From assembly GCA_030038475.1 (NCBI GenBank), contig JASHOU010000062.1, positions 1 through 64,000 of the forward strand: 64,000 bases of DNA. The letters run 5' to 3'. This DNA comes from Terriglobales bacterium. Lineage in GTDB: Bacteria; Acidobacteriota; Terriglobia; Terriglobales; Acidobacteriaceae. The notes beneath the pieces are model-generated. The model worked only from the letters and a program-made list of their open reading frames with translations, searched no databases and was not told the origin of the DNA. A program made the position numbers and the translations under genes. Below, one piece after another: positions 2,025 to 35,808 of this stretch; positions within the stretch are counted from its first letter, which is position 1, and the number at the start of each line of letters is the position of its first letter.

Positions 2025-2879
2025 TCATTGGTGTGGCGCCGAGGGCTTCAACGAGTCATCGAGATAAGCGAGATACCCGGCCATCAATTTATAACTATCG
2101 TAGTACCCATTCATCTGGATCGCAGCCAGAGTGTCCAACGGGGAATGCAGAATTGACCAATTCTTTTCTGTAACGGAATGCAGGGTGATGCGCGGGATAT
2201 GGTACGGGGCGAAAGATTCGGAGTCGGCACCGGCGCCTTCGGGCGGGTCGATTGAGCTTACCGTTAACTTGCCGGCGAATGCGACCGCGCGCAGAGCGTC
2301 GAGCAGGGCCGGGTCGGCGTGTGACGCCCAAACTTCAGTTGGACCGAGACCCAAGCTGTCGAAATTCACCATAGCGTCGATGCGAGCGCGCTCGGCGTCA
2401 GTAAGCTGATCGACGTAATAGCGCGATCCAAGCAAGCCGCGTTCTTCGCCTGAAAATCCGACAAAGATCAGCGTGTGATGGCGAGGATGGGCGCTGAGAC
2501 TGTAGAAGAGCGCGGGCAGCAGGACGGCGCCAGTCCAGTTGTCGACTACGCCGTCACCCGGTTCGACCTTATCGGTGTGAGCGCCGATAACGATAGCTTC
2601 CCGCGATGCGCCCGGCAGCAGGCAGACGACATTCGGCGGAAATCCCGGAGCGAAGATTTGCTCGGAGAGATTTGAGCGCTTGCAACCGGACTCCGCGAAC
2701 CACTTGCGGATGCGCACTTCACGTTCGCTATTGCTGGTTGAAAAAGACTTCAGGTGGTCTTCAATGGCTTCGCGCGTCTGCAGGCGCGGGCTGGGCGTTT
2801 GGGCCTGCGCACAAACAGTGGCTAGGCAGATGACGAATAGCGCGGCAACAGCGCTCGGGCCTTTCTTGGCGAACTTCAT
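2025..2879 (-). CDS. Exported M28-family zinc aminopeptidase
   Basis: 284 aa with a cleavable signal peptide (hydrophobic 9-25, CAQAQ before the mature part). The five metal ligands expected of M28 peptidases are all present: H101 in AHTDK, D113 in VDNWTG (bridging), E146 next to the catalytic E145 in SGEERG, D174 in NFDSLG, and H245 in LHSPLD. The enzyme should be an active two-zinc exopeptidase in the periplasm or outside the cell. There is no PA domain and no lipobox. It is a single gene. The fold and the active site are clear; the substrate is not known. Confidence 0.88.
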   Translation of the reverse strand: MKFAKKGPSAVAALFVICLATVCAQAQTPSPRLQTREAIEDHLKSFSTSNSEREVRIRKWFAESGCKRSNLSEQIFAPGFPPNVVCLLPGASREAIVIGAHTDKVEPGDGVVDNWTGAVLLPALFYSLSAHPRHHTLIFVGFSGEERGLLGSRYYVDQLTDAERARIDAMVNFDSLGLGPTEVWASHADPALLDALRAVAFAGKLTVSSIDPPEGAGADSESFAPYHIPRITLHSVTEKNWSILHSPLDTLAAIQMNGYYDSYKLMAGYLAYLDDSLKPSAPHQ

Positions 2880-29561: not shown

Positions 29562-29857
29562 GGCTGTCAGCTCTCTGCAAGTGATTATCCGGCTTTTATA
29601 CGGGAATGCAAGTAGCAAGCTGGTGAAATGTGTGGGAAATCGGGCAAAAATGGCACAGAAGTGGTATGGGCATTCTTCAGCTTCAGAGTAACAGCGAAAC
29701 TTACTTCGCTCGCCGGAATCAGATCGGATGAGACTTCGTGTCAAGGTGGTTGTGTCTCCACCGAGTCCGATGCCAGTCAGTTGCGGGTTGTGTTGCGCAT
29801 CATGCTGTGCACGTCGGCGTCGACTCTGTCTTGCAGTGAGAACTGCGGTGGGAAGAG

Positions 29858-30514
29858 ATGGCGGAAAGAGCAACTTCGCTGGAATATGCGGGCGAACAAC
29901 GCGACGAGGCGGCGCTGATCCGGCGGGTACGCGAAGGCGAGCATGAACTTTTTTATGAGCTGGTTCGCCCCTACGAACGCCGGGTCTACGCGGCCGCGTT
30001 CGCCATTCTGCGGAGCGAGGCTGACGCCGAAGACGTGGCTCAGGAAGCGGTGCTGAAGTCCTTCAAGCACCTGCGGCAGTTTCGCGCCGAGGCGCGGTTC
30101 AGCACGTGGCTGCTGCAGATCGCGGTGAATGAGGCGCGGATGCGAAAAAGAAAAGCGCACGCCGAGATTATGGAGCCGATCGCCGATCGCGAGGACAGCG
30201 AGGGCAACTATACGCCGCGCGACTTCGCCGACTGGCGCGAGATTCCATCGGAAACGCTGGAACGCAAGGAGGTTCGGCAAAAGCTCGCGGAAGCGCTGTT
30301 GGGGCTGGGGCAAATCTATCGCGAGGTATTTGTGCTGCGCGATATGCAGCACCTCAGCATCGAAGAAACTGCCAAGGCGCTCGGCATTTCCCCCGCGTCG
30401 GTCAAAACCCGATTGCTGCGCGCCCGGCTCATGCTGCGCGATCTGCTCGCTCCTGGCCTGGGCGGCGCGTGGAGCAGCAAGTTGTCATTCGCCAAGGGGA
30501 CAAAGCCATGGTAA
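29858..30514 (+). CDS. ECF sigma factor (sigma-70 family)
   Basis: 218 aa. Region 2 (about 38-105) includes FYELVRPYERRVYAAAFAIL and the conserved DAEDVAQEAVLKSF. Region 4 (about 145-195) contains IYREVFVLRDMQHLSIEETA and GISPASVKTRLLRAR. A typical acidic linker lies between. It should direct RNA polymerase to a regulon of its own. Its 3' end overlaps the next gene (anti-sigma) by 7 nt in CCATGGTAA, so the pair is translationally coupled. GGAAG lies just ahead of the ATG, with short spacing. Confidence 0.9.
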   Translation: MAERATSLEYAGEQRDEAALIRRVREGEHELFYELVRPYERRVYAAAFAILRSEADAEDVAQEAVLKSFKHLRQFRAEARFSTWLLQIAVNEARMRKRKAHAEIMEPIADREDSEGNYTPRDFADWREIPSETLERKEVRQKLAEALLGLGQIYREVFVLRDMQHLSIEETAKALGISPASVKTRLLRARLMLRDLLAPGLGGAWSSKLSFAKGTKPW

Positions 30515-31050
30515 TCCATTGCGAAGAAGTTTGGCGCGAGGTTTCAAACTATCTCGATGGCGAAATCGATCCCAGTTTGCGCACTGCCATCGACGAGCAC
30601 GTCCGCGGATGCCAGCGTTGTGCTGCGGTGCTCGACGGCACGCGCAACGTGATTCAGCTGTATGGGGATGAGCGCATGCTCGAAGTTCCCCTCGGGTTCA
30701 GCCAGCGCCTTCACCGGAGACTCGATGATCAGATGCCGCAGAATCGAAGAACCGTCCTCGGATGGCTGGTTGCCGCGGCCGCTGCCGTGCTCGTCGCTGG
30801 AACGATTGAGTTGTCGCGTTTGTCGGTATGGGGTCGACCCGATCTTCGTTCGCAAATGGCGCATCACGGTAACGGAGTGCCGGGGAATCTTATGGTGGTC
30901 GTTGCCGAAGACGGACGATTGTTTCACCTGGCGGGATGTTCATTCATCCATGAAAAAGACAAGCTGCGAACGATGACCGCGGCCCAGGCAACGCACGACG
31001 GTTATACGCCCTGCCCGCGTTGCCTGAAAAAGTATCTCGTCTCGACTTGA
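30508..31050 (+). CDS. Membrane anti-sigma factor with Ada-like C-terminal domain
   Basis: 180 aa from the ATG at 30508, with AAGGGG 8 nt upstream. The N-terminal ZAS domain binds a zinc ion through H31-x3-C35-x2-C38 plus C5 or another ligand, and should hold the sigma factor encoded just before. A TM spans about 82-102. The periplasmic part ends in FHLAGCSFIH...ATHDGYTPCPRC (C144, H148, C169, C172). This resembles the small Ada-type Cys4/His metal-binding domain (FHxxxC...GYxPCxxC) known from Ada and a few other proteins. The combination in an anti-sigma factor is unusual and suggests sensing of oxidants, alkylating agents or metals outside the membrane. Confidence 0.82.
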   Translation: MVIHCEEVWREVSNYLDGEIDPSLRTAIDEHVRGCQRCAAVLDGTRNVIQLYGDERMLEVPLGFSQRLHRRLDDQMPQNRRTVLGWLVAAAAAVLVAGTIELSRLSVWGRPDLRSQMAHHGNGVPGNLMVVVAEDGRLFHLAGCSFIHEKDKLRTMTAAQATHDGYTPCPRCLKKYLVST

Positions 31051-31056
31051 TGCTTG

Positions 31057-31085
31057 CAGCCGGTGTAACTTTTGGTGTCCGGCTG
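31057..31085 (+). other. Hairpin between anti-sigma factor and msrA
   Basis: A seven-pair stem CAGCCGG/CCGGCTG with a 15-nt loop. No T-run follows. It is followed by TATAGT at 31091-31096, a possible -10 element, so msrA may have its own promoter too. Confidence 0.4.
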
Positions 31086-31139
31086 AATCTTATAGTTGGC
31101 AGTCGAATTCAACGACTGCGCGTTTCAAAGGAGGTCCTT

Positions 31140-31811
31140 ATGTCGCGATTTCCCCACCGCGTACTAGCCGTGCTCTTGATGGTGATGCTCGCAGGCGTCG
31201 CGGCCAAAGCCGGAGATCCTGCCACCGCTTTCCCGAATCCCACGGTGGACGCCACGCAGGCGACGAGCAAGTCCCAGCAGGCTGCTGTGCTGGCCGGAGG
31301 CTGCTTCTGGGGTATCCAAGCTGTCTTCCAACATGTGAAGGGAGTAATCAGCGCGACCTCGGGATACTCCGGCGGCGAGGCCAGCACGGCGCACTACGAG
31401 CGGGTCAGTGAAGGCAACACCGGCCACGCCGAATCGGTGAAGATTGTTTACGATCCCTCGAAGATCACTTACGGTCAAATCCTCCGCGTGTACTTCTCCG
31501 TGGCGCACGATCCTACGGAGTTGAATCGTCAGGGACCGGACGTTGGCACTCAATATCGGTCTTCCATTTTCTATGCCAACGATGAACAGAAACACATCGC
31601 CGAGGCCTACATTGCGCAACTGGATAAAGCCAAAGTCTTCCCCAGTTCGATCGTCACAGTGGTGGTTCCATTGAAAGCCTTTTATCCAGCCGAAGCCTAC
31701 CACCAGGACTACGCAGCGCTTTATCCTGACAATCCCTACATCGTCTATAACGACGCGCCAAAGGTCGCTCACCTGCAGCAACAGTTTCCCGATCTTTACA
31801 AGAGCAGATGA
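31140..31811 (+). CDS. msrA: Exported peptide-methionine (S)-S-oxide reductase
   Basis: 223 aa from the ATG at 31140, which has a perfect AAGGAGG 5 nt upstream. Residues 1-24 form a signal peptide ending in AKA, so this MsrA acts in the periplasm. The catalytic GGCFWG is present, and the family motifs SGYSGG, H in GHAESV and YHQDY are intact. It returns oxidised methionine in envelope proteins to methionine. It lies 89 bp after the anti-sigma gene in the same direction, possibly a target of the ECF pair. Confidence 0.92.
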   Translation: MSRFPHRVLAVLLMVMLAGVAAKAGDPATAFPNPTVDATQATSKSQQAAVLAGGCFWGIQAVFQHVKGVISATSGYSGGEASTAHYERVSEGNTGHAESVKIVYDPSKITYGQILRVYFSVAHDPTELNRQGPDVGTQYRSSIFYANDEQKHIAEAYIAQLDKAKVFPSSIVTVVVPLKAFYPAEAYHQDYAALYPDNPYIVYNDAPKVAHLQQQFPDLYKSR

Positions 31812-31876: not shown

Positions 31877-34800
31877 CTATTTCAGCCGCTCGTATTCTGC
31901 CTTAGCTTGCCTCAGGACAGGTATCTCGGCGTCCGCATCCTTCCACAATTTGAGAAAGTCCGAATAGGCCACGCGGGCTATACCCTTATCTCCAGTTAAG
32001 GCATACGCCCGGCCAAGCTGGAGACGGGCCAATGCACCCAAAGGACAATTGACGGTGATACCAGGATGGTCGAGAAATTTCTGGAATTCCGCCGCTGCAT
32101 TGGTGCCATCGCGTAAGAGTAAGTAAGACTGGCCGCGAACATAGACGGGATAAAGGTAAGCTCCGATTTCGGCCTGCGGCAAAGGATTGCCCAGTTCGTA
32201 GGGAACGGCGTCGGCCAGAGCATCGATCGCTTTCGAAGGATTCTTGCGGTCGATTTCGATTGCGCCACGAATGGCCGGCAGCCAATAACGATTCACCACC
32301 GTATCCGACGGATAGCGCTTGCCTAGATCATCCGCAATTTGCTCGGCACGTTTGAAATCTCCGGCACGGGCCAGAGCTAGGGCGCCGAGAATCTGCATCT
32401 CGCGACTCGAGGAATTCGTCAGCACTGCATCCACGCGCTGCAGCGCTGGCGGATCGTTGCCAAACTCCGCTTCGCGCAACGCAGCATTCATCTGCCATCC
32501 CGCTGCAGTTTCCTGCTGATTGTTGCGCACAGCGGACTCCACAGCCTGTTGCGTCAACTCTCGCGCCCGCCGCAGCCGCCCGCCATAGGCCTCAGTGTCT
32601 GCCTCGGCCGAGAGCAACAGATTCTCGGCCGCCGGTTTTCCCGATGCCCACGCAGCTTGCCGTTGCATCTCTGCAGTGTCCGTTTCCAGGAATGCGATGC
32701 CATACAGATTCAGGTGCAGGAACGCAACATCCAGATTGCGCGCTTTTGCCTTCTGATAGGCGGCCTTTGCCTCTGGCAGCCGATTCAGCGCGGTGTAATG
32801 ACTCATAAGGTTGACATAACCCACCACGCTGTCAGGGTTAAGGCGAACGTCTTCTTCCATTTCAGTTGCAGCCTGATCGTAGCGCCCAAGGTAACCATAA
32901 ATTGCGCCTAAATCGCCGCGGGGCGCGTATTCGCGAGGATAATCTTCAGCCCAGAGTTGATAAGTTTCAGCAGCTTTCTCCAAATCGCCGGTCACCAGAT
33001 GGTAGTAAAGGCCCGAAACCCAATACCGCTCGCGGTCGCTGACCTGATCGCGCAATTCATAGGCCTTGCGGAGATTCTCGCTGGCGAGTGTCGGCTCCCA
33101 CAGATTGGTATAACTGGTTCCCAATGCCGCGTACGCGGCAGCAAAGTTCGGATCGAGTTCAACAGCGTGTTTGAAATAAGGAATCGCGGCCTCAGGTCCT
33201 TTTTCGAGCAGCGTTCTTCTACCTTGCGAAAGCGATTTGAGTGCTTCAAGCGACACGGTCGTATCCTGAACGATGGGCACGTCGAACTTCTGAATGCTGG
33301 CCAACGATTCGCCCAGCCTCTGGCGAAGCTTCGTCGTAGCGCCATCCAACGCCTTCAGTACTTTCTCTTTGCTCTCCGCTGTGACTTGCTCCTGAGCCAG
33401 AGGATCGCCCGTCGCACAGTTAATGGCGTTCACGCCAATCACATACTCGCTGCCCAGACGCGCGATTGAGCCTTCGATATACGCTTTGCTCGCGGCGCGC
33501 TGGCAGAGATCGCGCGCCACATCTCCGGTCACTTTGGTGCCCGGCGGCTTCGCCATCAGCTTTAGCACGGCGCGAGTCTTGGCATCGGAGAGAATGCTAA
33601 GAAAGGGCGATTGCGCCAACTGCACGGCCATCGCCTGTTTCAATGTGTCATCGAACACCGGGTCGCCGGTGGTGTTATCGAAATCGGCCAGCACCAGAGT
33701 GTCTTGCTCGGTCAGCACATGCGCGTGTCGCGCGCGAAGCATGAACGCTAACGCAACGATGGCTGCGATCGCGAGGACTCCTGCCGCCGCGAACCACAGC
33801 TTTCGACTGTGCAGGGCGCGGGTGACCCGAGCACGCCTTCCAGCCGCAATCTCCTTCAGGTCGTCGAGAATCTCAGCTGCCGACTGATAGCGCTCCGCGC
33901 GATCCTTCTGTAGAGCTTTGGCGATGATGTGCCCCAATCCCTCCGGAAGCTGCGGGCTAAGGGTCGTCTTCGCGAGTGGATCGCGATTGAGAATGGAATC
34001 AAAAACCACGGCGGCAGTAGTGCCGGCAAATGCCACCTGGCCTGTGGCCATCTCGTAAAATACGGCGCCAAGGCTGAATAAGTCGGTGCGGATATCAAGC
34101 TCTTCGCCACGGGCCTGTTCCGGCGACATATATGCGACCGTGCCGATCGCCATGCCAGTGCCGGTCAACTCGCCCGAACTTTCCTCCAACAAAGCGGAGC
34201 CCCCAGAAGCAATCGAAGCTTTGTGGCGCGCGGGAGCCAGTTTTGCCAGCCCAAAGTCCAATACTTTTACCTGCCCATGCCGAGTAACAAAAATATTGGC
34301 CGGCTTGATGTCGCGATGAATGATGCCTTGCGCATGAGCGGCATCGAGCGCCTCAGCGATCTGAATCGCCAGTTGCAGCAGGCGGTCCGCGGCCAGCGGC
34401 CCCGATTCGATGAGATGTTTGAGGGTCTGGCCGTCAAGATACTCCATGGCGATGAAGGCTCGACCTGCCTCCTCGCCGATGTCGTAAATCGTGCAAATGT
34501 TGCGATGGTTGAGGGAACTGGCAGCACGCGCCTCACGCTGGAATCGAATGATGGCGGTCGGATCTGCGGCGAAGCTTTCGGGCAAAAACTTCAGCGCCAC
34601 CAGCCGCCCCAGCCGCGTATCGCGCGCTTTGTAGACGACGCCCATACCGCCGCCGCCTAATTTTTCGAGAATGCGATAGTGAGAGACCGACTGGCCTACC
34701 AGCGCCGAGCCACTTTCTTCGGCTGTCCGGGTGCGGGGTTTGGCTAACTGCCGCGCGGCCACTTCAAGGGCCGGCACTTCGATGAAGGTCTCCGCTGCGT

Positions 34801-34960
34801 CATCGAGGGCAAGCAGCGATTCGACCTCGCGGCGCAGCGCCAAATCTGCGCCACACTCGCTCTCGAGAAATGCGCGGCGCTCGGCCGCGGCACGCTCCAA
34901 TGCCGAATGGTACAGCTGCTCCAACCGTCGCGCTCGTTCCTCGTCCCTCTCGCCAGCCAT
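31877..34960 (-). CDS. Transmembrane Ser/Thr protein kinase with TPR domain
   Basis: 1027 aa. An N-terminal helical segment (about 5-75, RRAFLESEC...LRREVESLL) is typical of acidobacterial and planctomycete kinases paired with ECF sigma factors. The kinase domain (about 90-360) has GGGGMGVV, the ATP Lys in VALKFLP, HRDIKPAN and DFGLA, and the APE region reads MSPEQARGE, so it should be active. A TM lies at about 388-410. The extracytoplasmic part has a TolB-like segment (VLADFDNTTGDPVFDDTLKQ) followed by many TPR-like repeats (about 580-1010). Its gene starts 20 bp after an ECF sigma gene. It probably phosphorylates or senses for that factor; this is inferred. Confidence 0.88.
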   Translation of the reverse strand: MAGERDEERARRLEQLYHSALERAAAERRAFLESECGADLALRREVESLLALDDAAETFIEVPALEVAARQLAKPRTRTAEESGSALVGQSVSHYRILEKLGGGGMGVVYKARDTRLGRLVALKFLPESFAADPTAIIRFQREARAASSLNHRNICTIYDIGEEAGRAFIAMEYLDGQTLKHLIESGPLAADRLLQLAIQIAEALDAAHAQGIIHRDIKPANIFVTRHGQVKVLDFGLAKLAPARHKASIASGGSALLEESSGELTGTGMAIGTVAYMSPEQARGEELDIRTDLFSLGAVFYEMATGQVAFAGTTAAVVFDSILNRDPLAKTTLSPQLPEGLGHIIAKALQKDRAERYQSAAEILDDLKEIAAGRRARVTRALHSRKLWFAAAGVLAIAAIVALAFMLRARHAHVLTEQDTLVLADFDNTTGDPVFDDTLKQAMAVQLAQSPFLSILSDAKTRAVLKLMAKPPGTKVTGDVARDLCQRAASKAYIEGSIARLGSEYVIGVNAINCATGDPLAQEQVTAESKEKVLKALDGATTKLRQRLGESLASIQKFDVPIVQDTTVSLEALKSLSQGRRTLLEKGPEAAIPYFKHAVELDPNFAAAYAALGTSYTNLWEPTLASENLRKAYELRDQVSDRERYWVSGLYYHLVTGDLEKAAETYQLWAEDYPREYAPRGDLGAIYGYLGRYDQAATEMEEDVRLNPDSVVGYVNLMSHYTALNRLPEAKAAYQKAKARNLDVAFLHLNLYGIAFLETDTAEMQRQAAWASGKPAAENLLLSAEADTEAYGGRLRRARELTQQAVESAVRNNQQETAAGWQMNAALREAEFGNDPPALQRVDAVLTNSSSREMQILGALALARAGDFKRAEQIADDLGKRYPSDTVVNRYWLPAIRGAIEIDRKNPSKAIDALADAVPYELGNPLPQAEIGAYLYPVYVRGQSYLLLRDGTNAAAEFQKFLDHPGITVNCPLGALARLQLGRAYALTGDKGIARVAYSDFLKLWKDADAEIPVLRQAKAEYERLK

Positions 34961-34980: not shown

Positions 34981-35604
34981 TCACGCGGACTCGGCAGTCG
35001 TTTCCCCGTCCGTTTCCGCACCGGTTTCTCTGCTTAAAGCGCGCAGCAGCCAGGCTTTCGCAAACCTCCAATCGCGTTTCACGGTCTCGGGCGAAATTTT
35101 CAACGCTTCGGCGGTTTCCTTGACTTCGAGGCCTCCAAAAAACCGCAGCTCCACCACCTGGCTCTGTCGCGGATACAACTTGGCGAGTTCCGTTAGCGCG
35201 GCATCGAGCGCCAGAATATCCGCATCCTTCTGCGGCGCAACGAAAACAGCCTCGTCGAAGGAAACCTGTACCGCGTCTCCGCCTCGCTTCTGATAACCTC
35301 GCGACCGCGCGAAATCGGTGAGGATGCGGCGCATCATGCGCGCCGATATGGCGAAAAAGTGGGCACGATCCTGCCAGTCGACGGCGTTGATATCCACCAG
35401 GCGGAGATAAACCTCATTGACCAAGGCCGTGGTTTGCAGGGTGTGGCCGGATCTTTCCCTGGCCATGCAGCGGTGCGCAATCCGGTGGAGCTCTTGTTCG
35501 ACGACCGGCGTCAATCGTTCGAGCGCCTTGTCGTCCCCCGCGCCCCAAGCTCTGAGCATTTGAGTGACTTCGACCTTTGAGGGGCTGTCAGCAAAACCGG
35601 CCAT
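34981..35604 (-). CDS. ECF-like sigma factor, kinase-linked type
   Basis: 207 aa from the ATG at 35604, with GAGGA 8 nt upstream; an earlier ATG is not supported. It matches the sigma-70 group (TIGR02999-like) that often stands next to Ser/Thr kinases in Acidobacteriota and Planctomycetes. It has VTQMLRAWGAGDDKALERL, HTLQTTALVNEVYLRLVD (region 2), and region 4 with LYPRQSQVVELRFFGGLEVKETAEAL. It has no anti-sigma partner; the neighbouring kinase gene starts 20 bp later. The operon pair implies control by phosphorylation, which is known for other kinase-linked ECF groups. Confidence 0.86.
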   Translation of the reverse strand: MAGFADSPSKVEVTQMLRAWGAGDDKALERLTPVVEQELHRIAHRCMARERSGHTLQTTALVNEVYLRLVDINAVDWQDRAHFFAISARMMRRILTDFARSRGYQKRGGDAVQVSFDEAVFVAPQKDADILALDAALTELAKLYPRQSQVVELRFFGGLEVKETAEALKISPETVKRDWRFAKAWLLRALSRETGAETDGETTAESA

Positions 35605-35808
35605 GGTTGCGGTCCTCGTGCGGCACGGAGGCAAAAGTGGCGTAGAGGCAAATTATCACATCGACCTCAGCCATGCCAGCGGCAGCCAAGGTTCAATTTC
35701 TCTCGTTCATATTGGCTCCCTCTGACCTTGGTTCCCGCGACATCAGCTGACGGGCCACATGAGACAGGCTTCGCGAACTAGAAAGGGGAACGGCAATCGT
35801 TCCCAATT

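Follow-up and report, generated by a model that had tools for sequence, protein, structure and literature searches.

The question raised by this locus is what an anti-sigma factor with an Ada-like tail perceives, and which genes its sigma factor controls. The DNA examined (the window) is a stretch of 64,000 nucleotides from a Terriglobales bacterium, for which an earlier note had suggested that alkylation, oxidants or metal might be sensed in the periplasm.

Sigma factor and anti-sigma factor genes

The ECF sigma factor (218 amino acids; 29858..30514, + strand) is characterized by matches to Sigma70_r2 (E 1.1e-15) and Sigma70_r4_2 (E 2.3e-14). Its stop codon overlaps by 7 nt (ATGGTAA) the start, an ATG at 30508, of the gene for a 180-residue anti-sigma factor (30508..31050, + strand), the reading frame of which ends at 31050. 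Each of the 66 related contigs has a sigma ortholog, 64-87% identical, at the corresponding position directly 5′ of the anti-sigma gene.

Residues 5-39 of the anti-sigma factor (30520..30624, + strand), predicted to be cytoplasmic, match zf-HC2 with an E-value of 5.9e-9 and a score above the Pfam cut-off, and the ligands C5, H31, C35 and C38 are invariant across 30 aligned orthologs; the ZAS zinc motif claimed by the earlier note is borne out. The pattern C/H-X23-26-H-X3-C-X2-C is present in 66/66 anti-sigma relatives, and a Foldseek search with the full-length model returned RsiW (5wuq) as its best match. By its motif and the co-encoded cognate ECF sigma factor the protein is assigned to ZAS class I, with sigma inhibition as its predicted activity. 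It has the ZAS domain in common with RsrA, ChrR and RsiW, none of which, to our knowledge, bears an Ada-like outer domain.

The AlphaFold2 model contains one hydrophobic helix at residues 83-102 (30754..30813, + strand), preceded immediately by the Tat-like sequence RRTVLG and accompanied by a weak Pfam TAT_signal match. A hydropathy segment above 1.5 is found in 64 of the 66 orthologs, in agreement with the single transmembrane segment originally described. The charge bias agrees with an N-inside topology in 47/66 relatives; the tail probably lies outside the cytoplasm. An RRxF(L/F/M)-type Tat-like motif adjoins the membrane segment (window 30739-30759) in 21/66 anti-sigma factors and is absent in the others; it may indicate that the metal domain is folded first and then inserted through Tat. 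Between the membrane segment and the tail lies a conserved segment, (R)SxH(A/S) (window 30850-30861), in which S115 is invariant in 30 orthologs, most of which have RSEHA; the segment is encountered again in stand-alone tail proteins.

The Ada-like tail

The C-terminal domain (residues 123-177; 30874..31038, + strand), delineated by profile, Pfam, model and Foldseek evidence, carries H140 (30925), C144 (30937), C169 (31012) and C172 (31021). Along with P168 and R171 these residues are invariant in 30/30 aligned orthologs, and 65 of the 66 relatives in the genome_contigs set show the His-Cys3 pattern, the exception (L100) being cut by the contig end. Conservation of the Cys/His residues, suggested earlier as a check, thus extends to all 65 untruncated orthologs. 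All of the relatives carrying the tail are Acidobacteriota MAGs (Acidobacteriaceae, Candidatus Sulfotelmatobacter, Terriglobia). In five of the orthologs (L018, L022, L024, L028, L032) an extra short hydrophobic stretch follows the Ada-like domain, whereas others end in an acidic extension.

The sequence FHLAGC...GYTPCPRC had been read as fitting the metal-binding domain of Ada, a view that holds in part. Against Ada_Zn_binding the single protein scores 14.7 bits, under the Pfam cut-off of 23, whereas all 30 aligned family members match at E<1. Searching the PDB with a tail profile recovered Ada N-terminal domains (E 0.014-0.035); a phmmer search of the PDB with the single tail gave chance matches only. 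The tail model (mean pLDDT 90) retrieves E. coli Ada at Foldseek ranks 1-3 (prob 0.97, 0.96 and 0.84), with E-values of 0.1-0.5 that are weak, as can be expected of 55 residues. With E-values of this order, a likeness to Ada is weakly suggested.

Cys38 of E. coli Ada is the methyl acceptor. In the alignment of the two proteins H140 falls on this residue, and C144, C169 and C172 fall on Cys42, Cys69 and Cys72. A true Ada from the same family (L141) has kept the Cys at the acceptor position. The tail therefore reads as Ada-like but without the residue for Ada chemistry, and the site as His-Cys3, its first ligand being His, and not the Ada-type Cys4 for which a structure prediction had been proposed; the bound metal is probably zinc. 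By comparison with N-Ada (PF02805) the tail has the same spacing, three Cys ligands and predicted fold, and differs in the His for Cys38, the sub-cut-off score, the membrane anchor and the probable location outside the cytoplasm. Although this likeness in sequence and fold would suit an Ada-type alkylation sensor, in which a tail Cys takes up a methyl group, the acceptor position is His in every ortholog and the regulon predicted below contains methionine sulfoxide repair genes and no alkylation-repair gene. Because of the Cys38-to-His change, alkylation sensing is rejected as scarcely credible.

Gene neighborhood

A gene for an MsrP-like molybdoenzyme and one for cytochrome b561 (Ni_hydr_CYTB) are located directly before the sigma gene in 54/66 related contigs. 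In four further contigs the cytochrome gene alone stands at the contig end before sigma, and two contigs begin inside sigma, such that the cytochrome precedes sigma in 58/58 informative loci outside the window's clade. The molybdoenzyme matches Oxidored_molyb (E 7e-34), and its best NCBIfam model is MsrP (88.6 against a cut-off of 207). In the six closest relatives of the window the pair is absent at the sigma locus, and four of these six possess msrA directly downstream, as does the window. The window's msrA (31140..31811, + strand) encodes a peptide methionine-S-sulfoxide reductase (PMSR E 4.2e-59; TIGR00401 165.6 bits, cut-off 108.1) with an N-terminal export signal, recognized by inspection. 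MsrA was considered as a constant partner and rejected, being near the sigma/anti-sigma pair in 8/66 loci only; a constant association is seen instead for the MsrP-like and cytochrome genes.

A gene for a Met-rich exported MXKDX peptide, often convergent, is present in the examined flanks of about 28 loci. The genome to which the window belongs has its MsrP-like, cytochrome and MXKDX genes together on another contig (C58), apart from sigma. Among 200 family genomes, 37 possess both tail and MsrP, three the tail only, 12 MsrP only and 148 neither (p 2.5e-26, a value that ignores phylogeny). No MsrP or cytochrome gene was found in the flanking DNA examined of the tail-less ZAS paralogs L107-L110, L112-L116 and L118.

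The window also encodes, on the - strand, a protein resembling protein kinases, with repeats in its C-terminal part (31877-34960), and, upstream of its gene, an ECF-like sigma factor (34981-35634). Both adjoin the anti-sigma system but are apparently unrelated to it.

Predicted promoter and regulon

The motif GWAACTT-N13-GAATC is found 5′ of msrP in 37/54 loci (0.9 expected from shuffles) and, in the window's clade, 5′ of sigma at every locus (7/7). In the window it corresponds to GAAACTTACTTCGCTCGCCGGAATCAGA (29696..29723, + strand), the ECF promoter predicted for the sigma/anti-sigma operon, and to an exact match, GTAACTTTTGGTGTCCGGCTGAATCTTA (31065..31092, + strand), the one predicted for msrA, 75 bp 5′ of the msrA ATG. 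Two matches in 64 kb are unsurprising by number (21% of shuffles, one mismatch allowed), and the weight is therefore placed on their positions and on the orthologs. The same -35 and spacing precede msrA in 9/9 loci with this gene when the -10 is GA[AC]TC, its GACTC variant having been read from the same sequences; the original motif gives 2/9. Before the MXKDX gene they occur in 22/28 loci (0.01 expected), the -10 being mostly CATC, by a pattern adjusted after inspection; a strict GAATC gave 3/29. As a control, the wide pattern was found in 0/70 cases before three neighboring housekeeping gene families. Where the cytochrome gene precedes sigma, the motif was not found within 100 bp 5′ of sigma (0/58); the promoter sits before msrP instead. 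A gapped-word search 5′ of sigma across all loci was set aside, its output being read mostly as the coding signal of the cytochrome C-terminus.

An independent test was provided by the window's own genome, the 4.46 Mb of which were scanned with the pattern derived from the msrP and sigma promoters. Five exact matches were obtained (one in the reversed control), three of which precede sigma, msrA and the MXKDX gene; allowing one mismatch adds a site 65 bp 5′ of the msrP ATG. Other matches (contigs C110, C151, C39, C159 and C201) revealed no convincing target. Taken with the ortholog data, these results strongly support a predicted regulon consisting of the sigma/anti-sigma operon, msrA, the msrP-like/cytochrome operon and the MXKDX peptide gene.

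The sharing of a promoter by msrP-like, msrA and Met-rich peptide genes lends strong support to oxidant sensing among the options first put forward; since the sigma factor apparently switches on envelope methionine repair, bleach-like oxidants are likelier signals than DNA alkylation. That the tail senses a metal instead (zinc limitation, copper, cadmium or chromate) would fit its metal-site motif and the response of Caulobacter SigF-NrsF to chromium and cadmium (PMC3511200). The promoter-linked targets, however, are devoted to oxidation repair, the own-genome matches having yielded no gene for metal transport or efflux, and we judge metal sensing highly improbable.

Comparison with known systems

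The closest parallels are the ECF16 pairs SigF-NrsF (Azospira, Caulobacter) and BcrS-AbcS (Brucella). In Azospira and Brucella an msrP-type regulon is reported to respond to hypochlorite, and periplasmic cysteines of the anti-sigma factors NrsF and AbcS matter or, in the case of one, are proposed as the sensor (PMC5748585, PMC8315932, PMC3511200). As in the window's relatives, the sigma/anti-sigma pair is encoded beside msrP-like, membrane electron-carrier and Met-rich MXKDX genes. An MsrP-like reductase, an electron carrier and an MXKDX peptide are under one ECF promoter there and, as far as can be read from the sequence, here too. In both cases the anti-sigma factor is a membrane protein having conserved cysteines for which a periplasmic location is proposed (the same reports). 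The -35 is that of the ECF16/SigF promoter, (T/C)GTAAC-N17-CGAA, and the -10, CGAA(T), is similar, whereas the spacing before CGAA is about 14 as opposed to 16-17, i.e., some 3 nt shorter. Furthermore, cytochrome b561 replaces MsrQ, and NrsF and AbcS are six-TM DUF1109 proteins with two Cys, whereas the protein described here has one membrane segment, a ZAS domain and an Ada-like His-Cys3 site; a Pfam search of it gave zf-HC2 and no DUF1109 match.

By analogy, the predicted regulon equals the one that SigF-NrsF and BcrS-AbcS control in connection with hypochlorite, although the anti-sigma factor in charge of it here is unrelated, and a response to hypochlorite is predicted; the His-Cys3 domain would stand at the place matching the sensing cysteines of NrsF. 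What is new is the sensor module, the kind of regulator being already known. A search of a literature collection with few subscription journals found no paper on an Ada-like anti-sigma factor. The earlier statement that no system of this build had been described fits the literature searched, with the proviso that the regulon type itself is known from SigF/NrsF. Uncultured soil Acidobacteria thus appear to possess the hypochlorite/methionine-repair regulon known from Proteobacteria, here governed by an anti-sigma factor that is unrelated and bears an outer cysteine site of its own. This raises the question of which agent in soil oxidizes the methionine of bacterial envelopes.

A ZAS anti-sigma factor is also found in the RpoE2-HrsE pair of Haemophilus influenzae, where the sigma factor controls a periplasmic methionine sulfoxide reductase with a link to HOCl (PMC7907618); HrsE differs in being a cytoplasmic protein of 67 residues without a membrane segment or outer domain. 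That such a protein controls msrAB lends some credence to an alternative in which redox switching, as in RsrA and as proposed for HrsE, takes place at the cytoplasmic ZAS zinc site, the tail being only an anchor, stability or interaction element. The four ZAS ligands are likewise invariant, and the anti-sigma factor matches the RsrA model weakly (32.3 bits; cut-off 62.5). In addition, one genome of another genus (G063, locus L162) has a ZAS anti-sigma factor that lacks the Ada-like domain, along with sigma, MsrP, cytochrome and the promoter motif. The tail is thus not needed in every such circuit, and this genome offers a natural comparison for its role. On the other hand, the envelope is where the predicted targets act, the four ligands of the tail are conserved as well as those of the ZAS domain, and ZAS zinc in membrane-bound anti-sigma factors may be structural (PMC7406223). 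A switch residing in the ZAS site is in our opinion unlikely.

Proposed mechanism

We favor, as probable, a periplasmic His-Cys3 zinc-thiolate switch for the repair of oxidized methionine. This reading starts from the computed architecture, ligand conservation, neighborhood and promoter before all four units, from which we infer the HOCl-like signal, the zinc, the topology and the release step. Zinc-cysteine sites are oxidant switches in other systems (PMC6432622, PMC6715182, PMC8262984). The membrane-spanning ZAS anti-sigma factor would retain its ECF sigma factor on the cytoplasmic side of the membrane until reactive chlorine, or a similar thiol- and methionine-oxidizing species, oxidized the cysteines of the extracytoplasmic His-Cys3 site. 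The ensuing loss of metal and altered shape of the Ada-like domain would lead to release of sigma, by conformation or by regulated proteolysis. Free sigma would then transcribe its own operon, msrA, the msrP-like/cytochrome b561 operon and the gene for the Met-rich exported MXKDX peptide, which is probably sacrificial. The circuit is complete and testable, comprising sigma, anti-sigma factor, promoter consensus and four target units, and a widespread exported Ada-like zinc-site module gains a likely job.

Stand-alone tails and other Ada-like proteins

In some genomes the tail is a protein of its own, anchored or exported, which mostly has the SEH(A/S) linker as well. Such small Ada-like His-Cys3 proteins, each with a transmembrane or signal segment and most with this linker, are found at L164:2591-2881 (+), L166:2289-2585 (-), L169:3118-3396 (-), L170 about 2340-2694 (+), L175:2739-3056 (+) and L176:2787-3104 (-), all beside MsrP-cytochrome or MXKDX-like genes with no adjacent sigma. 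By genome, stand-alone tails adjoin MsrP-cytochrome without an adjacent sigma in G004, G042, G023 and G049, and an MXKDX-like peptide gene in G023, G090 and G163. These proteins indicate that the tail has a role apart from holding sigma.

One such role would be as a working part of repair, i.e., a partner, substrate or metal-handler of MsrP/cytochrome b or of the Met-rich peptide, the fusion to the anti-sigma factor reading repair load and not oxidant. The positions of the stand-alone tails and the co-occurrence of tail and MsrP are congruent with this, but an interaction of the tail with MsrP, cytochrome or peptide is hypothetical and a stand-alone tail could still sense for another regulator; that of G049 looks like a remnant of a recent loss of sigma and ZAS. 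We regard this explanation as decidedly unlikely. There is a modest chance that the His-Cys3 domain is an independent, hitherto undescribed component of envelope methionine-oxidation repair captured by an anti-sigma factor, through which damage or repair load is read outside the membrane.

Ada-like domains in which His replaces the acceptor Cys are not restricted to regulators. In other Acidobacteriota, exported SNase-like nucleases (L126, L128, L130, L135, L137, L140 and L143) carry such a domain at the C-terminus. The tails of five of these (L126, L128, L130, L137 and L140) resemble that of the anti-sigma factor in the arrangement FH/YH...C...GxxPCxxC, with His first, and differ in being joined to a nuclease and not to a regulator. 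His-first forms are also present on small exported proteins elsewhere in the phylum.
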